DNA from: Burkholderiales bacterium Ga0077543
GTDB lineage: Bacteria > Pseudomonadota > Gammaproteobacteria > Burkholderiales > Burkholderiaceae_C
Length of the DNA stretch: 64,000 nucleotides
Assembly (NCBI GenBank): GCA_001464055.1
Contig: LNET01000100.1
Location: forward strand, 1 to 64,000
Direction: 5' to 3'
The notes under the pieces are model-generated. The model was not told where the DNA came from, ran no database searches, and saw only the letters and a program-made list of their open reading frames with translations. Made by a program: the position numbers and the translations under genes. Positions 13,482 through 38,223 of this stretch are shown piece by piece (position 1 is the first letter of the stretch; each line of letters starts with the position of its first letter).

Positions 13482-15086
13482 TCAAGTGCCGAATAGTGCC
13501 TGCCCGCCCAAGCTGGCCAGCATCGCACCGGCCTGCCCGCTGCGCACCAGCCGGCTGGCGTTTTCGATGTCGGGCGCCAGATAGCGGTCCTGCGGCATCG
13601 CCGCACAGTCCTGGCGCAGCAGCGCATGCGCGGCTTCCAGCGGCGCAGAACTGCGCAGCGGCCGCAGGAACTCGATACCCTGGGCGGCGGCCAGCCATTC
13701 GATTCCCAGGATATGCGCCACGTTGTCGATCATTGGCAGCAGGCGCCGCGCCGCGAAGGTGGCCATCGAGACATGGTCTTCCTGGTTGGCGCTGGTGGGC
13801 AGGCTGTCGACGCTGGCCGGGTGGGCCAGGCTCTTGTTTTCGCTGGCCAGCGCGGCGGCGGTGACGTGGGCAATCATGAAACCGCTGTTCAGCCCGGCGT
13901 TGGCGGTCAGGAAGGGTGGCAGGCGCGAAACGTTGCTGTCGATCAGCATGGCGATGCGGCGTTCGGCGATCGCACCCACTTCGGCGATGGCGCAAGCCAT
14001 CGCATCGGCCGCCAGCGCCACCGGTTCGGCGTGGAAGTTGCCACCGGAAATGATTCCCCCCCCGATGCGACCTGTGGCGGCCGCTTGAGCATCGACATCG
14101 CTGCGCTCGTCGACGAACACCAGGGGGTTGTCGGTGACGGCATTGGCTTCGCGCAGCAGCACGCCGGCCGCATGGCGCAGCTGGTCCAGGCAGGCGCCCA
14201 CCACCTGGGGCTGGCAGCGCAGGCAGTAGGGGTCCTGCACCCGGTCGTCGCCTTCCTCGTGGGAAGCGCGGATGGCGCTTCCGGCCAGGAGCGCGCGGTA
14301 GTGCTGCGCCACGTCGATCTGTCCGGGCTGGCCGCGCAGCGCGTGGATGCGCGGGTCGAAGGGGCCGTCGCTGCCACGCGCGGCATCCACCGTCAGCGCG
14401 CCGATCACGAGCGCGGCTTCGAGCACGGGCTCGAAACTGAACAGCGCGTGCAGGGCAAGCGCGGTGCTGGTCTGGGTGCCGTTGATCAGCGCCAGGCCTT
14501 CCTTGGCCGACAGCACCAGCGGCGCGATGCCATGCTGGCGCAGCACGGCCGCTGCGGGCACGCGCCGGCCTTCGACCAGGAACTCGCCCTCGCCCAGCAA
14601 GGCCAGCGTCATGTGCGCCAGCGGCGCGAGGTCGCCACTGGCGCCCACGCTGCCCTGGCTGGGCACGAAGGGCACGAGGCCGGCGTTGTACACCGCCAGC
14701 AGGGTGTCGATGACGACCGGCCGCACGCCAGAAACCCCACGCGCCAGGCTGGCGGCCTTGGTTGCCAGCATCACGCGCAGCACGGCCGGTGCCAGCGGTT
14801 CGCCCACGCCCACGCTGTGGCTGCGGATCAGGTTCAGCTGCAGCGTGGCCAGGTCGGCTTCGCTGATGCGTGTACTGGCCAGCTTGCCGAAGCCGGTGTT
14901 GACGCCATACACCGCAGCACTACCTTCGGCGGCGGCCTTCACCACCGCGGCGCTGGCCAGGATGGCGGGCAGCGCACGCGGGTCCATGACCAGCGGCTGC
15001 GGCCGCGCAGCGGTCACGGCGGCATCGGTGCTGCCGTGGATGGCGCGCAGTTCTTCCAGTGTCAGCTCACCCGGGCGCAGCAGCAT
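13482..15086 (-). CDS. hutH: Histidine ammonia-lyase
   Basis: Converts L-histidine to trans-urocanate and ammonia, the first step of histidine breakdown. The 534-residue product carries the Ala-Ser-Gly triad that forms the MIO cofactor (A149-S150-G151 in [12 protein letters not shown]). The selectivity pair is Ser-His (89-90 in IRSHSVGVG), as in histidine lyases; tyrosine lyases have His-Leu there. This matters because a PYP gene elsewhere in the window would need p-coumarate. The start ATG 15086 overlaps the hutU stop by one base (TGATG), so the two are coupled. Confidence 0.95.
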
Positions 15087-16837
15087 CAGGCCTTCTCCTG
15101 CACTGCGAGCATCGGCAGGTCCAGGCCCTGTTCGGTGGCGCATTGGCGGGCACTGTCGTAACCGGCATCGGCATGGCGCATCACGCCGGTGCCAGGGTCG
15201 TTCCACAGCACACGTTCGATGCGCCTGGCGGCCTCCGGCGTGCCGTCGCAGACGATGACCACGCCACTGTGCTGGCTGTAGCCCATGCCCACGCCGCCGC
15301 CATGGTGCAGGCTGACCCAGGTGGCGCCGCCGGCGGTGTTCAGCAGCGCGTTGAGCAGCGGCCAGTCGCTGACGGCGTCGCTGCCGTCCAGCATGCCTTC
15401 GGTCTCGCGGTTCGGGCTGGCGACGCTGCCGCTGTCCAGGTGGTCGCGGCCGATGACGATGGGCGCCTTGAGCTCGCCCGACTTCACCATGTCGTTGAAG
15501 GCCAGGCCGGCGCGGTGGCGCTCGCCCAGACCGATCCAGCAGATGCGCGCCGGCAGGCCCTGCAAGGCGATGCGTTCAGCGGCCATGTCCAGCCAGCGGT
15601 GCAGGTGGGTGTTGTCCGGGAAGAGCTCCTTCATCTTCGCGTCGGTCTTGCGGATGTCTTCCGGGTCGCCGCTCAGCGCCACCCAGCGGAACGGACCCAC
15701 GCCGCGGCAGAACAGCGGGCGGATGTACTGCGGCACGAAGCCCGGAATGTCGAACGCGTTCTTCACGCCGGCATCGAGGGCCACCTGGCGGATGTTGTTG
15801 CCGTAGTCGACCGTGGGCACGCCCATGGCCTGCAGGTCCAGCAAGGCCTGAACGTGCACGGCGCAGCTCTTGGCCGCGGCTACGCGCAGCGCGGCGTGCT
15901 GGCCGGCGTCGGCGCGGGCGGCCTGCCACTGTTCCACCGTCCAGCCGGCAGGCAGGTAGCCGTTGACCAGATCGTGGGCGCTGGTCTGGTCGGTGGCCAG
16001 GTCGGGCCGAATTTGCCCAGCTCGGCCACGGCGCACCAGCTCGGGCAGCACCTCGGCGGCATTGCCCAGCAGCGCGATCGACACCGCCTGCCTCAAAGCG
16101 GTGTACTTCGCCACCCGGGCCAGCGCGTCGTCCAGGTCGGTGGCCTGTTCATCGACATAGCGGCTGCGCAGCCGGAAGTCGATGCGGCTCTGCTGGCATT
16201 CGATGTTCAGGCTGACGGCGCCGGCAAAGGTGGCGGCCAGCGGCTGCGCGCCGCCCATGCCGCCCAGGCCGGCCGTGAGGATCCACTTGCCGGCCAGGCT
16301 GCCACCGAAGTGCTGCCGGCCGGCTTCGACGAAGGTTTCGTAAGTGCCCTGCACGATACCCTGGCTGCCGATGTAGATCCAGCTGCCGGCGGTCATCTGG
16401 CCGTACATCATCAGGCCCTTGCGGTCGAGCTCGTCGAAGTGTTCCCAGGTGGACCACTTCGGCACCAGGTTGGAGTTGGCGATCAGCACGCGCGGTGCGT
16501 CGGCATGGGTGCGGAACACGCCCACGGGCTTGCCGCTCTGCACCAGCAGGGTCTCGTCGGGCTGCAGCCGGCGCAGGCTGGCCGTGATGGCGTCGAAGCA
16601 GGCCCAGTTGCGCGCTGCCTTGCCGATGCCGCCGTAGACGACCAGGGCGTCGGGGTTTTCGGCGACTTCGGGGTCGAGGTTGTTGTGCAGCATGCGCAGC
16701 GCTGCCTCGGAAAGCCAGTTGACGCAGCTGATTTCAGTGCCGCGCGGTGCACGCACCGGGCGCGGGCCGGCGCTGGCGGCGGCGTTGCGGGCGGCAGACG
16801 CCGCGGCGGCTTCATGGATGCTGGACAGGTCGGTCAT
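15086..16837 (-). CDS. hutU: Urocanate hydratase
   Basis: NAD-dependent urocanase, turning urocanate into imidazolone propionate. It is 583 residues, slightly longer than the usual 555 or so, the extra being an Ala-rich N-terminus. The [10 protein letters not shown] loop binds NAD, and [15 protein letters not shown] is the signature segment. First gene of the hutU-hutH unit, divergent from hutC with 75 bp between the start codons. Confidence 0.97.
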
Positions 16838-16869
16838 GGCGGGGCCCTGGTGTCGCTTGGGTGGCGTGG

Positions 16870-16905
16870 ACTCTACTTGTCTAGACAACTCTAGGCAAGT
16901 AGCAT
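16870..16905. promoter_or_regulatory. Overlapping divergent hut promoters with palindromic operator
   Basis: The plus strand has TTGTCT (16877-16882), 17 nt, TAGCAT (16900-16905), reading into hutC with only 7 nt to its ATG. The minus strand has TTGCCT (16898-16893), 17 nt, TAGAGT (16875-16870), reading into hutU. The perfect 12-bp palindrome TTGTCTAGACAA (16877-16888) covers the hutC -35 and the spacer of the hutU promoter, and an outer ACTTG/CAAGT pair (16875-16900) frames it. HutC-type GntR regulators bind such palindromes, so one repressor could shut both promoters. Confidence 0.7.
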
Positions 16906-16912
16906 ACAGACC

Positions 16913-17623
16913 ATGTTGACCCCTACCCTGGCGCCTTATGCCCGCGTCAAGCAATACCTGAAGCAGGGCCTGGCTGCCGGCCGCTGGCTGCCGGGCGCGC
17001 TGATGCCGTCCGAAGCCGAACTGGTGGCCGAATTCGGCGTCAGCCGCATGACCGTGAACCGTGCGCTGCGCGAACTGCAGGCCGAAGGGCTGGTGCAGCG
17101 CACCCAGGGCGTGGGCACCTTCGCCGGTGCCCTGCACCATGTCAGCAGCACGCTGAACATCCGCGACCTACATGCCGAAATCGAAGCCCGTGGCCATCGT
17201 CACCAGGCCGTCGTCCACCTGCAGCGCGCCGAGCCGGCCACCCTGGCCCTGGCCGGCCAGCTGGGCGTGGCCCCGGGTGCCGAGGTCTTTCACACCCTGA
17301 TCGTGCACCTGGACAACGGTGTGGCGCTGCAGTGCGAAGACCGCTATGTCAACCCGGCCTGCGCCCCTGGCTACCTGCAGGCCGACTTCACGCAGACCAC
17401 GCCCACGCAATACCTGTTCGGCGCCACGGCCTTGTGGCGGGCGCAGTACACCATCGAAGCCAGCCGGCCCACCGCCCAGGAAGCCCGGTTGCTGGCCATC
17501 GCGCCCGACGCCCCCTGCCTGGTGGTGGTGCGCCGCACCTTCACCGTGGACGCCGCCATCACCATCGCCCGGCTCGTTCACCCGGGTGCCCTCTACCAGC
17601 TGGAAGGTCAGTTCACACCATGA
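16913..17623 (+). CDS. hutC: Histidine-utilisation repressor (GntR/HutC)
   Basis: 236-residue GntR-family repressor: an N-terminal winged helix-turn-helix (residues 10-75, with [20 protein letters not shown]) and a C-terminal UTRA ligand domain, which in HutC binds urocanate and releases DNA. Divergent from hutU-hutH and first in hutC-hutD-hutI-hutF, so it is autoregulated if the palindrome upstream is its operator. The hutC stop overlaps hutD as ATGA. Confidence 0.93.
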
Positions 17624-18174
17624 GCATCCACCGTGTGAAACTGGCACAGGCACGTGAACAGGCCTGGCGCAACGGCGGCGGCAGCACGCGCGAACTGCTG
17701 GCCTGGCCACAGGTGCAGGCCTGGCAGGTGCGGGTGAGCGTGGCGCACATCGGCCAGGACGGGCCGTTCTCCGCCTTCCCCGGCATCGACCGCTGGTTCG
17801 CCGTGCTGGCCGGTGCGGGTGTGGTGCTGACGCTGGCGGATGGCGAGCGCCGCCTGTCTGCCGCATCGCGCCCGCTGGCCTTCGACGGCGCGGCCGCGCC
17901 CGGCTGCACGCTGGTGGGCGGCGCTACCGACGACCTGAACCTGATGGTGCGCCGCGGCATCGGACAAGGCGAGATGTGGCGTGCCGAGCCTGGTGCCAGC
18001 ATCGACGGCGCCACCCGCTGGCGCGCGGTGTATGCCGCCGGCGCCACCTCGGTCGACATCGACTTCCGCACCGAGACCCTGGCCGCGGGCGACCTGCTGT
18101 GGTCCGACACTGCCGACCCCGAGCCCTGGCTGGTGCACGGCGCCGGCCCGGCCTTCTGCATGGCGGTGCGCTGA
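17620..18174 (+). CDS. hutD: HutD family protein
   Basis: 184-residue bicupin-fold protein found in hut clusters. Its role in Pseudomonas is thought to be to limit or govern hut expression, possibly by binding urocanate or formimidoylglutamate; the mechanism is unsettled. Signature WRNGGGSTRELL near residue 14 and FPGIDRWFAVLAG near residue 50. The start ATG 17620 overlaps the hutC stop; hutI starts directly after its stop. Confidence 0.92.
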   Translation: MSIHRVKLAQAREQAWRNGGGSTRELLAWPQVQAWQVRVSVAHIGQDGPFSAFPGIDRWFAVLAGAGVVLTLADGERRLSAASRPLAFDGAAAPGCTLVGGATDDLNLMVRRGIGQGEMWRAEPGASIDGATRWRAVYAAGATSVDIDFRTETLAAGDLLWSDTADPEPWLVHGAGPAFCMAVR

Positions 18175-19395
18175 ATGACGACGCCGCTGCACCTGTGGCG
18201 CAACGCCCGGCTGGTGACGCTGGACGGGCCGCGTGGCTGGGGTTTGGTCGAGGGTGGTGCACTGCTCGTGGGCGGCGACAGACTGCACTGGGTCGGCCCG
18301 ATGGCTGAACTGAACCGGTCAGGTTCGGCCGGCCCGGACATCGTTGCCGAACACGACCTGGGTGGCGCGCTCGTCACGCCCGGCCTGGTGGACTGCCACA
18401 CCCACCTGGTCTATGGCGGCCAGCGGGCGCAGGAATTCGAAGCACGGCTGAACGGTGCCAGCTACGAAGACATCGCCAAGGCCGGCGGCGGCATACGCTC
18501 GACCATGGCGGCCACGCGCGCAGCCAGCGGTGATGAACTCTTCGCGAGCGCCGCCCAACGCGCCCGCGGCTTCATGGCCGAAGGCGTGACGACGATGGAG
18601 ATCAAGTCCGGCTACGGCCTGAACGAAGCCGACGAGGCCCGCTGCCTGACGGTGGCCCGCCGCCTGGGGCGCGAACTGAGCCTGGGCGTACGCACCACTT
18701 CGCTGGGCGCGCACGCACTGCCCCCGGAATTCGAAGGCCGCCCCGACGACTACATCGCCGCCGTCTGCCGCTGGCTGCCGGCCCAGCAGGCCGCGGGCCT
18801 GGTCGACGCCGTGGACGCCTTTTGCGACCGCATCGGCTTCACGCCCGCGCAGACGCGTCGTGTCTTCGAAGCCGCCCAGGCGCTGGGCCTGCCCGTGAAG
18901 CTGCACGCCGAACAGCTGAGCGACCAGCAGGGCGCCGTGCTCGCCGCCGAATTCAAGGCGCTGAGCTGCGACCACCTGGAACACCTGTCGCCCGCGGGCG
19001 TGCAAGCGATGGCCGCCGCCGGCACCGTGGCCGTGCTGCTGCCGGGCGCCTGCTACTTCCTGCGCGACACCACCCTGCCCCCGGTGCAGGCCCTGCGCGA
19101 CGCCGGCGTGCCCATGGCCGTGGCCAGCGACCACAACCCCGGCTCCTGCCCCACCGGCAGCCTGCGGCTGATGTTGAACATGGCCTGCACCCTGTTCCGC
19201 CTGACACCCGAAGAAGCCTTGCGCGGCGCCACCACCGTGGGCGCGCTCGCACTGGGCCTGCACGACCGCGGCGTGCTGCGCGCCGGGCTGCGTGCCGACT
19301 TCGCAGTCTGGGATCTGTCGCACCCCAGCGAGCTGGCCTACGGCTTCGGCGGCAACCCCTGCCGTCGGGTGGTGGCCGGCGGCGTCGAACGATGA
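18175..19395 (+). CDS. hutI: Imidazolonepropionase
   Basis: Metal-dependent amidohydrolase that opens imidazolone propionate to N-formimidoyl-L-glutamate. It is 406 residues with the HxH metal pair at H75/H77 ([10 protein letters not shown]), LHAEQLSD carrying a further metal His, and SDHNPGSCP with the catalytic Asp. Its stop overlaps hutF as ATGA. Confidence 0.96.
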
Positions 19396-31446: not shown

Positions 31447-31473
31447 TCAAGTCGAGCGCCAGCCCGCCGATAG
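31447..31473 (+). promoter_or_regulatory. Sigma-28 (FliA) promoter of the PYP operon
   Basis: TCAAG (31447-31451), 14 nt, GCCGATAG (31466-31473). This matches the flagellar sigma factor consensus TAAAG/TCAAG, 14 nt, GCCGATAA at nearly every position and at the exact spacing. Transcription would begin near 31480, about 30 nt before the PYP ATG. No sigma-70 promoter is evident in the gap. Confidence 0.7.
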
Positions 31474-31508
31474 GAAAGGCGACCCCTACCCGATCCAGGC
31501 GCCCGACC

Positions 31509-31901
31509 ATGACCACTGCCCAAGCTGTCTCTTTCGTCGACGCCCAGCTCCTGTGTGAGCTCGACCGCCTTGGCGACGAGGAACTCGACGCCCTGGACTT
31601 CGGCGTCATCGGCATCGATGCCGAAGGCGTGGTCCGCCGCTACAACGCCTTCGAGAGCAAGGCCGCCGGCCTCTCTCTCGCAAGGGTGCTGGGCCAGCCG
31701 CTGTTCACGGTGGTGGCGCCGTGCATGAACAACTTCATGGTGGCTCAGCGCTTCGACGAAGCCCGCGAAACCGCCAGCACGCTGGACGCCACCGTGGACT
31801 ATGTGCTGACGCTGCGCATGCGGCCGGTGAAGGTGAAGTTGCGCCTCTTGGCCGCGCCCGGCGGGGCCAATCGCTACGTACTGGTCCAACGCGCACTGTA
31901 A
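31509..31901 (+). CDS. pyp: Photoactive yellow protein (PYP)
   Basis: Small PAS-fold blue-light receptor, 130 residues (Halorhodospira PYP has 125). PYPs bind p-coumaric acid by thioester to a Cys; light isomerises it and starts a photocycle. Aligned by eye with a constant offset of 3: Cys72 in VAPC equals Cys69, Tyr45 equals Tyr42, Glu49 equals Glu46 and Met104 equals Met100, so the chromophore site is there. Two pocket residues differ: Thr50 is Ala53 and Arg52 is Leu55. The ending (RPVKVKL... YVLVQRAL) also matches. It starts at ATG 31509. The cyclase gene starts 2 bp after its stop, so output through cyclic di-GMP is likely. No tyrosine ammonia-lyase or coumaryl ligase gene is in the window. 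Confidence 0.87.
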   Translation: MTTAQAVSFVDAQLLCELDRLGDEELDALDFGVIGIDAEGVVRRYNAFESKAAGLSLARVLGQPLFTVVAPCMNNFMVAQRFDEARETASTLDATVDYVLTLRMRPVKVKLRLLAAPGGANRYVLVQRAL

Positions 31902-31903
31902 GC

Positions 31904-33241
31904 ATGGAAGCCAGCCTCGAAGACGACTACGAAGCGCTGGTCCAGTTCCTGTACATGGCCCCGATCGGGCTGGTGCAGGCGCGGCTGGACGGCGAGATCC
32001 TGATGGTCAATCCGCTGTGCGCGCAGCTGCTGGTGCCGCTGTCGCGAGACGGCAGCCTGACCAACCTCTTCACCGCCCTCGAAGCCGTGGCCCCCGACCT
32101 GCGCCACCGTGTCGCCGACTTCGGCGCCGGGCACGGCATGGTCTGCGAAGGCCTTCAATTGCGCGTGGCCCTGAACCCGGCCGACCGGCGAGCAGTGCAG
32201 CACTTGTCGCTGACCTTGCTCAAGCTCGACGCCGAGCGCGTGATGGCCGTGCTGGGCGACATCACGCAGACCGTGGCGCGTGACCGCGAACTGCGCCAGA
32301 GCCAGGCCTGGCTGAACACCATCGTGACCGGCCTGACCGACTACGCCCTGATGACGCTGGACGAAGAAGGCCGCCTGGAGCAATGGAACCCCGGCGTCGA
32401 ACGTGTGACGGGCCACACCCGTGCCAGTGCCGAAAAACAGCCCTACAGCCTCTTCTACCCGCCCGACGCGACCACGCCTGACAGCATCAGGGACCGCCTG
32501 TTCGAGGCCGACCGCAGCGGCTGGAGCGTGGACGAAGGCTGGATGCTGCACGCCAACGGCAGCCGCTTCTGGGGCAGCTGCCTGATCGCGCCGCTGCACG
32601 CACCCGGCAGCGGGCTGGGCGAGGAGCCGCGTTACAGCCTGATCATCCGCGACGTCAGCGACCGCCGCGAGGCTTCCGACGCGCTGCGCCGCGCCGTCAG
32701 CTGCGACCACCTCACCGGCCTGGCCAACCGCCGCACCCTGTACGACGCAGCGGAACTGGAGCTGCAGCGCTGGCGCCGAACGCCGCGGCCGCTGTCGCTG
32801 CTGCTCGTCGACGCCGATCACTTCAAGGCCATCAACGACAGCCATGGCCACGCTGCCGGCGACGCCGTGCTGCGCCACCTGGCGGCAGGCCTGTCGGCCA
32901 CGTTTCGTGCTGTCGACATCGTCGCCAGGCTGGGTGGCGAGGAATTCGTCGTGCTGCTGCCCGGGGCCACGCTGGACAGTGCCGAGGCCGGCGCATTGCG
33001 GCTTTGCCAGAGCATTGCCAGTCAGACCGTGCACGTGGCGGGCGTGCCGATCCGCTACACCCTGAGCGTGGGGCTGGCGACGATGGAGGCCGAAATCGAC
33101 AGCGTCGATGCGCTGATTGCGCGAGCCGACCGCGCCATGTATGCGGCCAAGTCTGCCGGCCGCAATCGGGTCATGCGCTGGCTGCCCGACATGCAGGTGC
33201 CAACTCCCAGGGCCTCCAAGGCCGGCACGACCACGGCCTGA
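31904..33241 (+). CDS. PAS-PAS-GGDEF diguanylate cyclase beside PYP
   Basis: 445 residues, soluble. Order: an N-terminal PAS (about 8-125, with QFLYMAPIGLVQARLDG), a second PAS (about 130-262, with WNPGVERVTGHT) and GGDEF (265-430). The active site GGEEF lies near residue 344 and the I-site RAVD five residues before it, so it should make cyclic di-GMP with product inhibition. The first PAS is nearly the same as that of the next gene product. Two bases separate it from the PYP stop, so the two are co-transcribed and probably coupled; a direct PYP-PAS contact is my inference. Confidence 0.88.
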   Translation: MEASLEDDYEALVQFLYMAPIGLVQARLDGEILMVNPLCAQLLVPLSRDGSLTNLFTALEAVAPDLRHRVADFGAGHGMVCEGLQLRVALNPADRRAVQHLSLTLLKLDAERVMAVLGDITQTVARDRELRQSQAWLNTIVTGLTDYALMTLDEEGRLEQWNPGVERVTGHTRASAEKQPYSLFYPPDATTPDSIRDRLFEADRSGWSVDEGWMLHANGSRFWGSCLIAPLHAPGSGLGEEPRYSLIIRDVSDRREASDALRRAVSCDHLTGLANRRTLYDAAELELQRWRRTPRPLSLLLVDADHFKAINDSHGHAAGDAVLRHLAAGLSATFRAVDIVARLGGEEFVVLLPGATLDSAEAGALRLCQSIASQTVHVAGVPIRYTLSVGLATMEAEIDSVDALIARADRAMYAAKSAGRNRVMRWLPDMQVPTPRASKAGTTTA

Positions 33242-33264
33242 GCGGCGGTCCCGGTGCGCCAGCG

Positions 33265-36015
33265 ATGAGCGAATCCAGCCAGGCCGCCGCCGAGGCGCTG
33301 ATGCAGTTCCTCTACCAGGCCCCGATCGGCCTGGTCCAGACGACGCTCGACGGGACGATCACCATGATCAACCCGATGTCGGCGCAGCTGCTGATGCCGC
33401 TGGCAGCCGACGGCGACATGACGAACCTATTCGAGGTGCTGAAGCCGGCGGCGCCTTCCCTGCGGGCCGAGGCGGCCGCCGCTGCCTGGCCCGGAGGCAC
33501 GGTCTGCGACGGGCTGCGCCTGCCGCTGCCGGGCGGCCCGGCGGGCGATTCGGCCGGCAGCATGCTGTCGGTGCGCCTGCTGCGCCTGGACGCCGATACG
33601 CTGATGGCCAGCGTGGCCGACATCACGGCCGAAGTGCGCCAGGAGCGCGAACGTGTCGCATCCGAGCTGCGTGTGGCAAGCCGCATCGACCCGCTGACCG
33701 CCTTGCCCAACCGCAGCGTCGCGCTCGAACGCATCGAGGCCGCCCTGGCGCAGCCCGTCGGCCCGGTCGGTGGCAGCCTGGCGGTGCTCTTCATCAACTG
33801 CGACCGCTTCAGCCGCGTCAACGTCACGCTCGGACAAGCCGCGGGCGACGAACTGCTGCGGATGATGGCCGCCCGCATCGGCGGGGCACTGCGCCAGCGC
33901 GATACCTCGCGCCTGACCACCGACTGCGGGCAAACGGCCGCACGCCTGGGCGTGGACGAGTTCGTCGTCGTGCTCGAGGGCCTGCAGTCCGGCCAGTCCG
34001 CCGCGGCAGTGGCCCAGCGGCTGGTGGACGCGCTGGGGCAGCCTTATTGCATCGGCGCCGAACAGGTGCACATCAGCGCCAGCATCGGAGTGGTGGTCAG
34101 CCCCGACGGCAGCGCCGATGCCGAAGCCGTGCTGCAGGACGCCAGCCTGGCCATGCGCGAAGCCAAACGCCAGGGCGGTGGACGCTACTGCGTCTTCGAA
34201 GCCGGCATGAAGACCCGGGCCCAGCACCGCGCCAGCCTGGAAGGCGAACTGCGTCAGGCCCTGGCCGACGAGCAGCTCTTCGTCGTCTACCAACCCATCG
34301 TTCGACTGAACGGCGGTGGCGTGGATGGCGTGGAAGCCCTGGTGCGCTGGCAACACCCGGTGCGTGGTCTGATACCGCCCATCGAATTCATCGGAGTCGC
34401 TGAAGAAACCGGCCTCATCGTGCCGCTGGGCCGGCGCGTGCTGGACCTGGCTTGCCGGCAGCTCGCGCAATGGCGGCAGCAGCTCGGCGCACAGGCGCCG
34501 CAGGTGTTGTCGGTGAATCTGTCACGTGCGCAGATCACCCAGCCCGGCCTGCACGATGGGGTACGCGAAGCACTTGCCGCCAACGACCTGGAACCTGGCT
34601 GCCTGCAGCTGGAGATCACGGAAAGCCTGGCCGCCGAAGACCCGACCATCCAGCATCGCCTGCAGCAGCTCAAGCGCCTGGGCGTGCTGCTGGCGCTGGA
34701 CGACTTCGGCACCGGCTATTCCTCCCTGTCCAGCCTGCACCAGTGGCCGGTGGACGTGATCAAGATCGACCGGTCTTTCGTCAGCCAGATCGACACCAGC
34801 CCGCACCACCGGGTGCTGGTCGAGGCCACGATGCTGGTGGCCCGCAGCCTGGGCATGAAGACGGTGGCCGAGGGCGTGGAAACCGCGGCTCAGGCCCGGG
34901 TGCTGGCCAGCCTGCAGTGCGACAAGGCGCAGGGCTACCTGTACGCGCGCCCGCTGGAAGCCGGACAGGCCACGGCCTGGCTGGAGGCGCGCGCGCATCA
35001 GCCGCAGCCGGAAACTCCCGCCGCCCTGCCGGGCGACCCGGAGCAGATGGACAGGCCGCCGTCGCGCGCCATGGCCGCCGAAAGGCTGCTGCAACTGCTG
35101 GACGACACCGAGGTCGCCGTGGCCTTGTTCGACCCCGAGGAACGGCTGGCCTATGCCAACCACCGCTTCCGCCTGGCCCATTGCCTGGGCCTGGGGCCTG
35201 ATCCGTGCTGGGAAGAGATCATGCGCCAGGCGCACCGGGAGCAGACCGGCCTGCTGATCGAAGACCCCGACATCGAGCGCTGGCTGGCCCGTGTCCGCAA
35301 GCACTATCGACGCCAGCCCCGCCGGGTGTTCGAGTCCGACTTCACCGACGGCCGGTGGATGCGCGTGACCGAGGAAACGGCGGCCGACGGCTGGCAGCTG
35401 TGTGTACTGAGCGACGTCACCTCGCTGAAGGCGCACGAGGCCGAACTCCGCCGCGCCCGGGACGCGGCCTGGGTCGCCAGCATCACCGACCCTCTGACCG
35501 GTCTGCCCAACCGCCGTCATGCGTTCGACCGTCTGCAGTCGCTGCTGACGCAAGCCTTGCTGCAGCGGGTGCCCCTGACCGTGGCCGTGATCGACATCGA
35601 CCTGTTCAAGCTGATCAACGACAGCCACGGCCATGGCGGCGGCGACCGCGTGCTGGTGGGCTTTGCGCACACCCTCGGCCGGGTGCTGCGCCAGGGCGAC
35701 ATGCTGGGGCGCATCGGTGGCGATGAGTTCCTGCTGGTGCTGGCCAACAGCGGCCACGCCGGTGGCGAACGTGTGCTGGCGCAGGCACGGGCGGCGCTGC
35801 GGGCCGAGCTGCTGATACCGGGCCAGCCACAGTTGCGCGTCAACTTCTCTTCAGGCATGGCGATGGCGCAGGCCGGCGACACCCCAGACTCGCTGTGGCA
35901 ACGCGCCGACCGCGGCCTGCTGGCCGCCAAGTCCTCCGGCCGCGGCCGCGACCTGTACGTCGAAAGCCCGGACACCGCGGCCGAACTGGTGCATCGCCTG
36001 CTGGACACCGACTGA
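33265..36015 (+). CDS. PAS-GGDEF-EAL-PAS-GGDEF cyclic-di-GMP enzyme
   Basis: 916 residues with an unusual five-part order. PAS (about 8-120); GGDEF-1 (150-310), whose motif is GVDEF (near 230) with no I-site and an insert before it, so probably not a cyclase; EAL (315-565) with EALVRW, ITESLA and DDFGTG (near 478), so a likely phosphodiesterase; a second PAS (600-725); GGDEF-2 with an intact GGDEF near 818 and I-site RQGD. It may therefore both make and break cyclic di-GMP. It starts at ATG 33265, 23 bp after the cyclase gene. It looks like a fusion of a GGDEF-EAL protein and a PAS-GGDEF protein. Confidence 0.87.
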   Translation: MSESSQAAAEALMQFLYQAPIGLVQTTLDGTITMINPMSAQLLMPLAADGDMTNLFEVLKPAAPSLRAEAAAAAWPGGTVCDGLRLPLPGGPAGDSAGSMLSVRLLRLDADTLMASVADITAEVRQERERVASELRVASRIDPLTALPNRSVALERIEAALAQPVGPVGGSLAVLFINCDRFSRVNVTLGQAAGDELLRMMAARIGGALRQRDTSRLTTDCGQTAARLGVDEFVVVLEGLQSGQSAAAVAQRLVDALGQPYCIGAEQVHISASIGVVVSPDGSADAEAVLQDASLAMREAKRQGGGRYCVFEAGMKTRAQHRASLEGELRQALADEQLFVVYQPIVRLNGGGVDGVEALVRWQHPVRGLIPPIEFIGVAEETGLIVPLGRRVLDLACRQLAQWRQQLGAQAPQVLSVNLSRAQITQPGLHDGVREALAANDLEPGCLQLEITESLAAEDPTIQHRLQQLKRLGVLLALDDFGTGYSSLSSLHQWPVDVIKIDRSFVSQIDTSPHHRVLVEATMLVARSLGMKTVAEGVETAAQARVLASLQCDKAQGYLYARPLEAGQATAWLEARAHQPQPETPAALPGDPEQMDRPPSRAMAAERLLQLLDDTEVAVALFDPEERLAYANHRFRLAHCLGLGPDPCWEEIMRQAHREQTGLLIEDPDIERWLARVRKHYRRQPRRVFESDFTDGRWMRVTEETAADGWQLCVLSDVTSLKAHEAELRRARDAAWVASITDPLTGLPNRRHAFDRLQSLLTQALLQRVPLTVAVIDIDLFKLINDSHGHGGGDRVLVGFAHTLGRVLRQGDMLGRIGGDEFLLVLANSGHAGGERVLAQARAALRAELLIPGQPQLRVNFSSGMAMAQAGDTPDSLWQRADRGLLAAKSSGRGRDLYVESPDTAAELVHRLLDTD

Positions 36016-36130: not shown

Positions 36131-37375
36131 ATGTCGAACAGCGGCCTGACCCTGCCCCATCCTCCGGCGCTGCCCGCCAATGCGCTGAGCTCGGTCGTTC
36201 GGCGCTGGCAGAAGCGACTCAGACGCACGGCCCTGGTGCTTTTCTGCGTTTGCCTGGGCATCGCCACCCTGCTGACGGCCCTGGACGGAGGCGGCTTCCA
36301 CGTGAAGCTGACTTACGGGCTGTGCATCGGCATCTGCTGCACCCTCGTCAACGATCTGTCCTGGTTCGCCCAGGCCTGGGCCTACGACAAGCTGCGCAGC
36401 CTGCGCGGGCTGCCGCCCACACCCGGACCCTATCTCAGCGGCTGGGCTGGCACCCTGCCCTCGGCCGCACTGTGCGTGCTGATCGGACCGACGCTGGGGC
36501 AGACGATCGCCGACGCCATCTTCGGCTTCAGTTCACCCAGCCTGCTGAACCTGGACAGCACCGCCGCCCGCGTCACGCTCGTCATCAGCGGCCTGGCCAC
36601 CCTGGTGCTGATCCTGGCGGTGAGCGCGGCCGAACGTGTCAGCGCCGCCCGCGCCGAAGCCGAGGCCGCGCGTCGACAGGCTGCAGAAACCCAGCTGCGA
36701 CTGCTGCAAAGCCAGCTCGAACCGCACATGCTCTTCAACACCCTGGCCAACCTGCGCGTGCTGATCGGCCTGGACACAGTCCGCGCCCAGGCCATGCTGG
36801 ACCATCTCATCGCTTTCCTGCGCGCCACGCTGCAGGCCTCGCGCCGGGGCGAACACCCGCTGGCCGACGAATTTGCGCGCCTGGCCGACTATCTGGCGCT
36901 GATGACCGTGCGCATGGGCCCGCGCCTGCAGGTGCGGCTGGACCTGCCGACCGAGCTGAATGCGGTGCCGGTGCCGCCACTGCTGCTGCAGCCGCTGGTT
37001 GAAAACTGCATCCAGCATGGGCTGGAACCCAAGGTCGAAGGTGGCAGCGTCCACGTCAGCGCCCGCCGTGACGGACCTTTCCTGGTACTGACGGTGCAAG
37101 ACAGCGGCATCGGCCGCGGCGGCGCAGCCGTGCAGGCGGCGGGCCGCGCAGCATCTCTGCCCGGCCAGGCCGCCGGCGGCTTCGGGCTGACCGGTGTGCG
37201 CGAGCGGCTGGCCACGCTGTACGGCGAGCGCGCCGGCCTGAGCCTGGCCGACGGCCCGCAAGGGCGCGGCACGCTGGTCACCGTGCGGCTGCCGATCGTG
37301 CCTGTGCCTTCGGCGCATGCCGCCCCCGTCTCCACGGGCCCCACGCCCAACCCCTCCAACACCACGACTTCATGA
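36131..37375 (+). CDS. LytS-type sensor histidine kinase
   Basis: 414 residues. Four to five membrane segments in residues 30-180, then a coiled stretch and the His_kinase (LytS/AlgZ) domain with the phospho-acceptor in EPHMLFNTLANL near residue 199 and an ATPase segment with LVENCIQHGL and GFGLTGVRERL. It resembles the AlgZ/FimS class that pairs with LytTR regulators. It overlaps the regulator gene as ATGA. Confidence 0.88.
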   Translation: MSNSGLTLPHPPALPANALSSVVRRWQKRLRRTALVLFCVCLGIATLLTALDGGGFHVKLTYGLCIGICCTLVNDLSWFAQAWAYDKLRSLRGLPPTPGPYLSGWAGTLPSAALCVLIGPTLGQTIADAIFGFSSPSLLNLDSTAARVTLVISGLATLVLILAVSAAERVSAARAEAEAARRQAAETQLRLLQSQLEPHMLFNTLANLRVLIGLDTVRAQAMLDHLIAFLRATLQASRRGEHPLADEFARLADYLALMTVRMGPRLQVRLDLPTELNAVPVPPLLLQPLVENCIQHGLEPKVEGGSVHVSARRDGPFLVLTVQDSGIGRGGAAVQAAGRAASLPGQAAGGFGLTGVRERLATLYGERAGLSLADGPQGRGTLVTVRLPIVPVPSAHAAPVSTGPTPNPSNTTTS

Positions 37376-38223
37376 CTCCAGCCCGCGCCCTGATTGCCGA
37401 AGACGAACCCCTGCTGGCTGCCGGTCTGCGTGCAGACCTGGCCGCGCTATGGCCCGACTTGCAGGTGGTGGCCAGCGTCGGTGACGGCATCAGCGCCGTC
37501 ACCCAGGCCCTGGCCTTGCAGCCCGACATCTGCTTCCTGGACATCCGCATGCCCGGCAGCACGGGGCTGGAAGCGGCCCAGGCGCTGGCCGAGGACTGGC
37601 CAGACACGGCCTCGGGCGCGGCGTTTCCGCTGCTGGTGTTCGTCACCGCCTACGACCAGTACGCGCTGCGGGCCTTCGAGGCCCAGGCCGTCGACTATCT
37701 GGTCAAGCCCCTGGACCGCCAGCGCCTGGCCGCCTGCGTGCTGCGCCTGCAGGCCAGGCTGGCCGAGCGCGCCCGCACGGCGGCCACGCCGATGGCAGCC
37801 GCTTTGCCAGGCCCGGCGGCCAGGGCGGACACCGACCTGAACCACACCCTGGCGCAATTGCGCGCGCTGCTGGGCGGTGTGGCCCCGCCACCGGGTACGC
37901 GGCTGGAGGTCATCCAGGCCCAGGTCGGCAACCTCGTGCACATGGTGCCGGTGCACGAGGTGCTGTACTTCGAAGCCGCCGACAAGTACGTGCGCGTGGT
38001 CACCGCCGAACGCGAGCACCTGATCAGGATGTCGCTGCGCGAGCTGCTGCCGCAGCTGGACCCTCAGGTGTTCTGGCAGGTGCACCGCGGCACGGTGGTG
38101 CAGGCGCGCTGCATCGCCACCGCGCGGCGCGAGGAAACGGGAAAAGTCACGCTGACCCTCGGCGGGCGCCCGGAAAAGCTCACGGCAAGCCGGCTTTACG
38201 CCCACCTGTTCAAGGGCATGTGA
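37372..38223 (+). CDS. LytTR response regulator (AlgR-like)
   Basis: 283 residues: a receiver domain (5-125) with acidic pair E10/D11, phospho-acceptor D57 in CFLDIRMPG and a late KPLD lysine, then a LytTR DNA-binding domain (about 175-283). Partner of the kinase gene it overlaps. In Pseudomonas, AlgR of this class activates the minor-pilin operon; a similar operon lies 20 kb away in this window, but a link is only inferred. Confidence 0.9.
   Translation: MTPARALIAEDEPLLAAGLRADLAALWPDLQVVASVGDGISAVTQALALQPDICFLDIRMPGSTGLEAAQALAEDWPDTASGAAFPLLVFVTAYDQYALRAFEAQAVDYLVKPLDRQRLAACVLRLQARLAERARTAATPMAAALPGPAARADTDLNHTLAQLRALLGGVAPPPGTRLEVIQAQVGNLVHMVPVHEVLYFEAADKYVRVVTAEREHLIRMSLRELLPQLDPQVFWQVHRGTVVQARCIATARREETGKVTLTLGGRPEKLTASRLYAHLFKGM

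Follow-up and report, generated by a model that had tools for sequence, protein, structure and literature searches.

The operon and its genes

We analysed 64,000 nucleotides from Burkholderiales bacterium Ga0077543 (contig LNET01000100.1, positions 1 to 64,000 of the forward strand; hereafter, the window), in which the gene of a stand-alone photoactive yellow protein (PYP) is followed by two genes for enzymes of cyclic di-GMP (c-di-GMP) metabolism (Table 1). The three genes form a row on the + strand, with 2 bp between pyp and the cyclase gene and 23 bp between the cyclase gene and the third gene, i.e., one strand and short gaps, as in a PYP-GGDEF/EAL operon. A promoter and terminator scan found neither. 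A sequence-only reading of this DNA had described a PYP 2 bp before a PAS-PAS-GGDEF cyclase and a third gene about 1.36 kb downstream, all in one direction with short gaps, and our coordinates agree: ATG 31904 follows the pyp stop at 31901, and ATG 33265 lies 1,364 bp from that stop. The start that it gave, 31447, is not that of the gene, the pyp ATG being at 31509.

The second gene has Pfam-type matches to GGDEF and PAS_9, and the third to EAL, GGDEF (twice) and PAS_7. The cyclase carries the motifs of a diguanylate cyclase, a GGEEF active site and an RxxD I-site (RAVDIVARLGGEEF). Of the two GGDEF domains of the third protein, the first has a degenerate site (GVDEF) and the last an intact one with RxxD; its EAL motifs are intact (EALVRW, LDDFGTGYS), from which phosphodiesterase activity is predicted.

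Table 1. Features of the pyp operon, in positions of the window
Feature	Position	Strand	Basis
PYP homologue, 130 aa	31509..31901	+	ATG 31509, stop 31899-31901; match to PYP structure 1mzu
Diguanylate cyclase PASn-PAS-GGDEF, 445 aa	31904..33241	+	ATG 31904; domain matches, GGEEF, RxxD I-site
PASn of the cyclase (PAS fold flanked by a helix on the N- and the C-terminal side), presumed receiver for PYP	31904..32290	+	Sequence, model
PASn-GGDEF-EAL-PAS_7-GGDEF protein, 916 aa	33265..36015	+	ATG 33265; domain matches, motifs
PASn of the GGDEF-EAL protein, sharing 50% identity with the cyclase PASn	33265..33651	+	Sequence comparison
C-terminal PAS_7-GGDEF extension behind EAL	35107..35946	+	Domain matches

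PASn, a domain shared by both enzymes

The first ~125 residues of the two enzymes are homologous and 50% identical. We call this common N-terminal PAS domain PASn, a name coined in this analysis. Tested against 13 PASn members, no Pfam PAS family exceeded its gathering score (the best, PAS_4, reached E 0.055 in one member), and a sequence search of solved structures with the PASn profile found no relative. A model from 95 sequences (predicted local distance difference test, pLDDT, 90.4; predicted template modelling score, pTM, 0.77) displays a PAS fold flanked by one helix on either side. Foldseek searches with this model returned PAS-containing proteins, 21 of them at E ≤0.001, with PYP itself at 1.2e-3; judged by the model, PASn has a PAS fold. 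The shared N-terminal PAS, already noticed by the sequence-only reading, and the conserved gene order are both borne out, more strongly than that reading could know.

PASn accompanies one type of PYP

On a tree of 110 PYP rows, the window PYP belongs to one well-supported branch of 96 rows, here called the window PYP type. We followed this type, PASn or both through genomes of the order (399), class (369) and phylum (398), three overlapping samples, and further through 250 family genomes, plasmid records and a set of named loci. In the genome surveys, scoring was limited to the top 10, 11 or 17 first-look candidates per genome. The named loci derive from a contig scan with two peptide patterns from the window PYP type, the best 80 of 180 relatives being kept; they overlap with the sampled genomes (for example, L100 with the G269 locus and L094 with the G380 locus), and counts are not additive.

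PASn adjoins window-type PYP in 79 of the 80 named loci, the exception, L139, being cut by the contig edge right behind pyp. Within the order sample, clear PYPs (at least 59 bits) occupy 17 places in 12 genomes; any match to TIGR02373 occurs in 66 genomes, those of 30.5 bits or less having been dropped as ordinary PAS domains. The window PYP type was found at 12 places in 11 genomes, and PASn is next door at all 12, once (L049) in broken frames. Copies of other PYP types in this sample (G380:C1 and four in G125) have no PASn of their own within the ~20 kb fetched. The reverse search yielded 23 strong PASn places (at least 84 bits), all in the 11 genomes with the window PYP type: 21 are at PYP loci, G164:C110 is next to a diverged piece of PYP where the contig ends, and in the 13.5 kb fetched for G164:C41 (L208) there is no PYP, its genome having PYP elsewhere. 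PASn matches below 29 bits were dropped as background, and a 34.8-bit fragment in G393 belongs to a kept locus.

The family sample contains the window PYP type (at least 100 bits) at 23 places in 21 genomes, and PASn is adjacent at all 22 places outside the window's genome, with scores of 36 to 182 bits; four loci with other PYP types (L204-L207) are without it. Places below 49.9 bits, plus two partial ones in G937 (49.9 and 49.7 bits), were left out of this locus comparison. Besides one 23-bit match, PASn occurs in the class sample in the window's genome only, and strong PASn in the phylum sample is limited to that genome (G000) and G056, other matches staying below 27 bits. Strong PASn without PYP nearby amounts to one place across the overlapping samples of 399, 369 and 398 genomes.

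Plasmids carry the pair as well. Thirteen records have a PYP match and 11 a PASn match, all 11 being among the 13; the two matches are 9 to 34 bp apart in ten of the 11, and in the eleventh a PASn cyclase starts 5 bp after pyp. A plasmid with PYP only, CP025613, shows 32% identity. Since the carriers include Rhizobium, Methylobacterium, Sphingomonas, Polymorphobacter and Indioceanicola, with Alphaproteobacteria among them, the PYP-PASn pair is not confined to Burkholderiales.

Some of these places deserve a separate remark. PYP of the window type is annotated as "phosphonate transporter", apparently a wrong name, in five of the 13 PYP-matching plasmid records (CP099603.1, NZ_CP071131.1, NZ_CP048421.1, NZ_CP049319.1 and NZ_CP049159.1; L260, L262, L295, L296). 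The PASn-PAS-GGDEF gene of L208 has a degenerate-looking GGDEF site. At L049 / L096, in a metagenome-assembled genome (MAG) that is 64% complete, the reading frames of the PASn genes next to PYP are disrupted, by decay or assembly error. One operon (L138) lies in a contig labelled as a Gemmatimonadaceae MAG, which would reflect transfer or wrong binning.

Outputs and flanks vary around the pair

In the window and the 80 loci, PASn is part of 65 GGDEF open reading frames (ORFs) without EAL (63 with GG(D/E)EF, 59 with RxxD), 70 EAL ORFs (70 with the EAL motif, 69 with DDFG) and three HisKA kinases. The C-terminal PAS_7-GGDEF extension is found in five of the 70 (window, L081, L092, L130 and L145). 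PASn also heads kinases in the family set (L195, L197, L202), and at L196 (5090-6625) a HisKA_3 histidine kinase next to PYP bears it at the C-terminus. Placed on the PYP tree, the kinase label needs five changes, of which strongly supported branches force only one; for this labelling L203 (PASn at 36 bits) was scored as lacking PASn, and the other-type PYP of L088 as having c-di-GMP partners by nearness. As PASn stays with PYP while outputs vary, the constant partner of PYP is PASn and not the enzyme.

HerA, DUF1499 and GlnRS, which flank the operon in the window, recur in one of the 80 loci, the nearest relative L081; 57 of the 80 have at least 20 kb of sequence for this comparison. Because the flanks of the window are found in L081 alone (apart from a kinase/LytTR pair also present in L118), the three genes are a conserved unit, and because their order recurs where flanking genes do not, a chance association is excluded. 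The pair in question, a sensor kinase (His_kinase) and a LytTR response regulator, lies directly downstream of the operon on the same strand (36131-38223 of the window), and related pairs are downstream in both L081 and L118.

Chromophore residues and chromophore genes

The window PYP is a single PAS domain of 130 aa with PAS_4 above the cut-off, close to the ~125 residues of the family, and of the solved structures the PYP domain 1mzu matches it best (E 1.2e-19, query residues 13-125). Y45, E49 and C72 stand at positions Y42, E46 and C69 of Halorhodospira PYP, the family residues. At Halorhodospira positions 50 and 52 the protein has A53 and L55; passages of PMC12826048 give Ala50 and Leu52 as the PYP family consensus. 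Its score with TIGR02373 (equivalog photo_yellow), 81.3 bits, is below the cut-off of 143.05, which in the order sample is passed by the G380:C1 copy only. Where rows have a letter, Y42 and E46 are kept in 85 of 85 and C69 in 86 of 86 (five rows are another PYP type), and across the 96 rows of the window type the figures are 99%, 99% and 100%, respectively; among the named loci, the conservation of C69 is partly by construction, the scan pattern VAPC[ML]NN[FY] containing the Cys.

Genes for making and loading the chromophore are found near many of these operons. A p-coumarate:CoA ligase gene is present in 35 of the 80 named loci and an aromatic ammonia-lyase in eight. In five loci (L082, L085, L088, L140 and L141), the PYP-PASn operon has a further PYP, of another type, no more than a few kb away; this second PYP comes with the ligase and, where in view, the lyase. 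In four Methyloversatilis loci (L102, L106, L108, L122), lyase, ligase, PYP and both PASn enzymes run in one direction; an Indioceanicola row consists of pyp (so annotated), ligase, lyase, window-type PYP and a GGDEF gene with PASn; and in Rhizobium a gene annotated 4-coumarate--CoA ligase comes after the PASn cyclase. Such chromophore genes beside window-type PYP in relatives argue that the clade is loaded with p-coumarate.

One candidate for chromophore synthesis in the window was rejected. The ammonia-lyase at 13482-15206 (-), considered as a tyrosine ammonia-lyase, is HutH in a hut cluster. This histidine utilisation cluster (13482-19395) comprises HutH (-), HutC (16913-17623) and HutI (18175-19395).

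Does PYP signal through PASn?

We hypothesize that p-coumarate-loaded PYP acts in trans on the two c-di-GMP enzymes of its own operon. Light would alter the shape of PYP, the altered PYP would bind or leave the N-terminal PASn, and the helices flanking PASn would relay the signal to the GGDEF and EAL domains, so that blue light would shift c-di-GMP. That PYP works on both enzymes through PASn in this way we consider fairly probable; the binding, the photochemistry and the direction of the effect are what we infer from the observations above. In a wider form, which we also tend to favour, PASn would be a separate PAS family and a dedicated PYP receiver, joined in evolution to a cyclase, a cyclase/phosphodiesterase and two kinds of histidine kinase (HisKA and HisKA_3), binding PYP and passing its signal to whichever output is attached. 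Some positions of PYP may be contacts for PASn. Those conserved in ≥90% of the 96 sequences yet different in seven other PYPs cluster behind Cys72 (75, 78-81, 84-85, 93), with further ones at 100-103, 105 and 111-114 and others at 33, 35, 50, 53, 55, 59, 122, 123 and 125; by sequence comparison, some of these are candidates.

Several results limit the proposal. We modelled a pseudo-complex as a single chain read across the pyp stop (as Gly) into PASn, with 99 rows; 20 loci were printed with pyp and the next PASn gene in one frame, and 16 were used (two duplicates and two with a long gap or cut PASn set aside). The model (pLDDT 91.3, pTM 0.61, no control) shows no confident docking; we estimate that two well-folded halves at unknown relative position would give a pTM somewhat lower than 0.61, so that the value speaks neither for nor against docking. 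Partial correlation of distances is highest for PYP-PASn in both enzyme types (0.43 over 69 loci and 0.31 over 64), and this co-divergence lead is not significant, as subsampling intervals include no difference. Docking of PYP on the shared PAS, as the sequence-only reading had proposed, fits the comparative data but is confirmed by neither of these two analyses. Conservation of the gene order in relatives, set as a test beforehand, holds among kin of the order but not in two same-genus genomes of the family sample, which have no PYP match. A true exception is plasmid CP099603, where window-type PYP (66.7% identity) faces a convergent PAS/kinase gene without PASn and no PASn match was found. 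At L052 (G164:C71), a PYP beside a PASn kinase keeps Cys69 and has other residues at Tyr42 and Glu46. In the Methylobacterium and Rhizobium loci (L261, L263), PASn is in the cyclase only, the neighbouring EAL proteins having other N-termini, from which the cyclase may be the older PASn partner. All the loci are related by descent, so that the counts are not independent. Finally, in the window's genome (94.5% complete) the sole aromatic ammonia-lyase match is HutH, and the best match to the p-coumarate ligase family reaches 52 bits over a fragment, none being recognised.

The descent of the loci opens another explanation: PYP and the enzymes would serve one c-di-GMP programme without touching, PASn would sense a small molecule of its own, and the co-inheritance would be that of an operon. 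The homology of the loci, the docking model, the co-divergence intervals and the PYP of CP099603 are all consistent with it. However, PASn keeps with PYP where output domains and flanks differ and even where it sits elsewhere in the chain; in our samples, strong PASn hardly occurs where PYP is missing. We therefore regard an arrangement without contact as unlikely, and docking of PYP on PASn as the best-supported reading.

The missing chromophore genes raise a different question, namely whether the window PYP holds p-coumarate at all and, if so, where it comes from. A chromophore-free PYP, blind to light and acting as an ordinary PAS partner or ligand sensor, would match the window's genome, where neither a tyrosine ammonia-lyase nor a p-coumarate ligase was recognised, and the TIGR02373 score under the cut-off, in a clade that passages of PMC9664959 call not thoroughly characterised. 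Yet almost all rows retain Y42, E46 and C69, a conservation not easily accounted for without selection for p-coumarate, and chromophore genes lie near window-type PYP in relatives; we think such a PYP quite improbable. Another reading is that the operon reports light and plant phenolics together: in a cell that makes no p-coumarate itself, a general acyl-CoA ligase would turn scavenged p-coumarate into the p-coumaroyl-CoA that loads PYP, in which case c-di-GMP would answer light only when p-coumarate is around. We surveyed supply genes in 27 of the 31 genomes with the window PYP type, leaving out four less complete ones. Nine of the 27 have no aromatic ammonia-lyase match, including the single-contig G817, and eight have a full-length 4-coumarate:CoA ligase match (three over the family cut-off, five at 266-322 bits), four right beside window-type PYP and four beside another PYP. 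Along with HutH as its sole lyase match, the window's genome has a protein of the benzoate-CoA ligase family. However, not finding a gene in draft genomes is weak evidence, and of the 27 AMP-binding matches in the window's genome 20 were compared with NCBIfam under a strict threshold, with no p-coumarate ligase named and seven of the 20 matching nothing. A dedicated ligase near pyp in 35 of 80 loci, moreover, makes dedicated loading common in kin, and we hold scavenging to be a tentative option, somewhat on the improbable side.

If PYP does act through PASn, alpha- and betaproteobacteria would possess a split blue-light module of the plug-in kind, which would explain how the single-domain PYPs of this clade signal. 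PYP is among the best studied photoreceptors in biophysics, and PYP with the ~130-residue PASn is an exact fragment pair for tests of light-dependent binding. If the proposal holds, they would also provide a compact switch of two parts, which might be coupled to further enzymes.

Comparison with known systems

How the signal leaves a single-domain PYP is stated as an open question in passages of both PMC9664959 (2022) and PMC12826048 (2025). According to the former, clade C PYPs come mostly from Proteobacteria, especially Burkholderiales, are often beside GGDEF proteins and may modulate them; like the window, they include PYPs of Burkholderiales that stand alone beside GGDEF and EAL genes. By its host group and neighbours, the window PYP is very probably a member of clade C. 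The latter predicts pyp operons of which 29 of 113 encode GGDEF (listed downstream) and 22 EAL, as in the window, and the passages on them do not name a receiver domain; no word beginning "Burkholderi" was found in its text. The operon is, therefore, a further example of an already published type (pyp beside GGDEF/EAL genes), and the split PYP/c-di-GMP operon that the sequence-only reading took for a novelty was in print, for Burkholderiales clade C (PMC9664959) and among those 29 of 113 operons (PMC12826048). What is new here is PASn as the constant partner of the window PYP type. Where passages of PMC9664959 name the neighbours as GGDEF/EAL proteins only, we add the shared PAS, its near-exclusivity and the kinase versions; no mention of a common PAS domain of PYP partners was found in the text of either paper, supplements being outside the search.

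Two other systems link PYP with c-di-GMP. In Idiomarina loihiensis, blue light lowers biofilm through PYP (cited in passages of PMC9664959 and PMC12826048), and this single-domain PYP is believed to work on a neighbouring GGDEF protein, as we propose for the window; it is placed in clade A (PMC9664959), clade C being the probable place of the window PYP. Ppd of Thermochromatium, a PYP-phytochrome-GGDEF/EAL fusion, likewise ties PYP to c-di-GMP domains. Ppd does so within one chain that includes a phytochrome, whereas the window has separate chains and no phytochrome.

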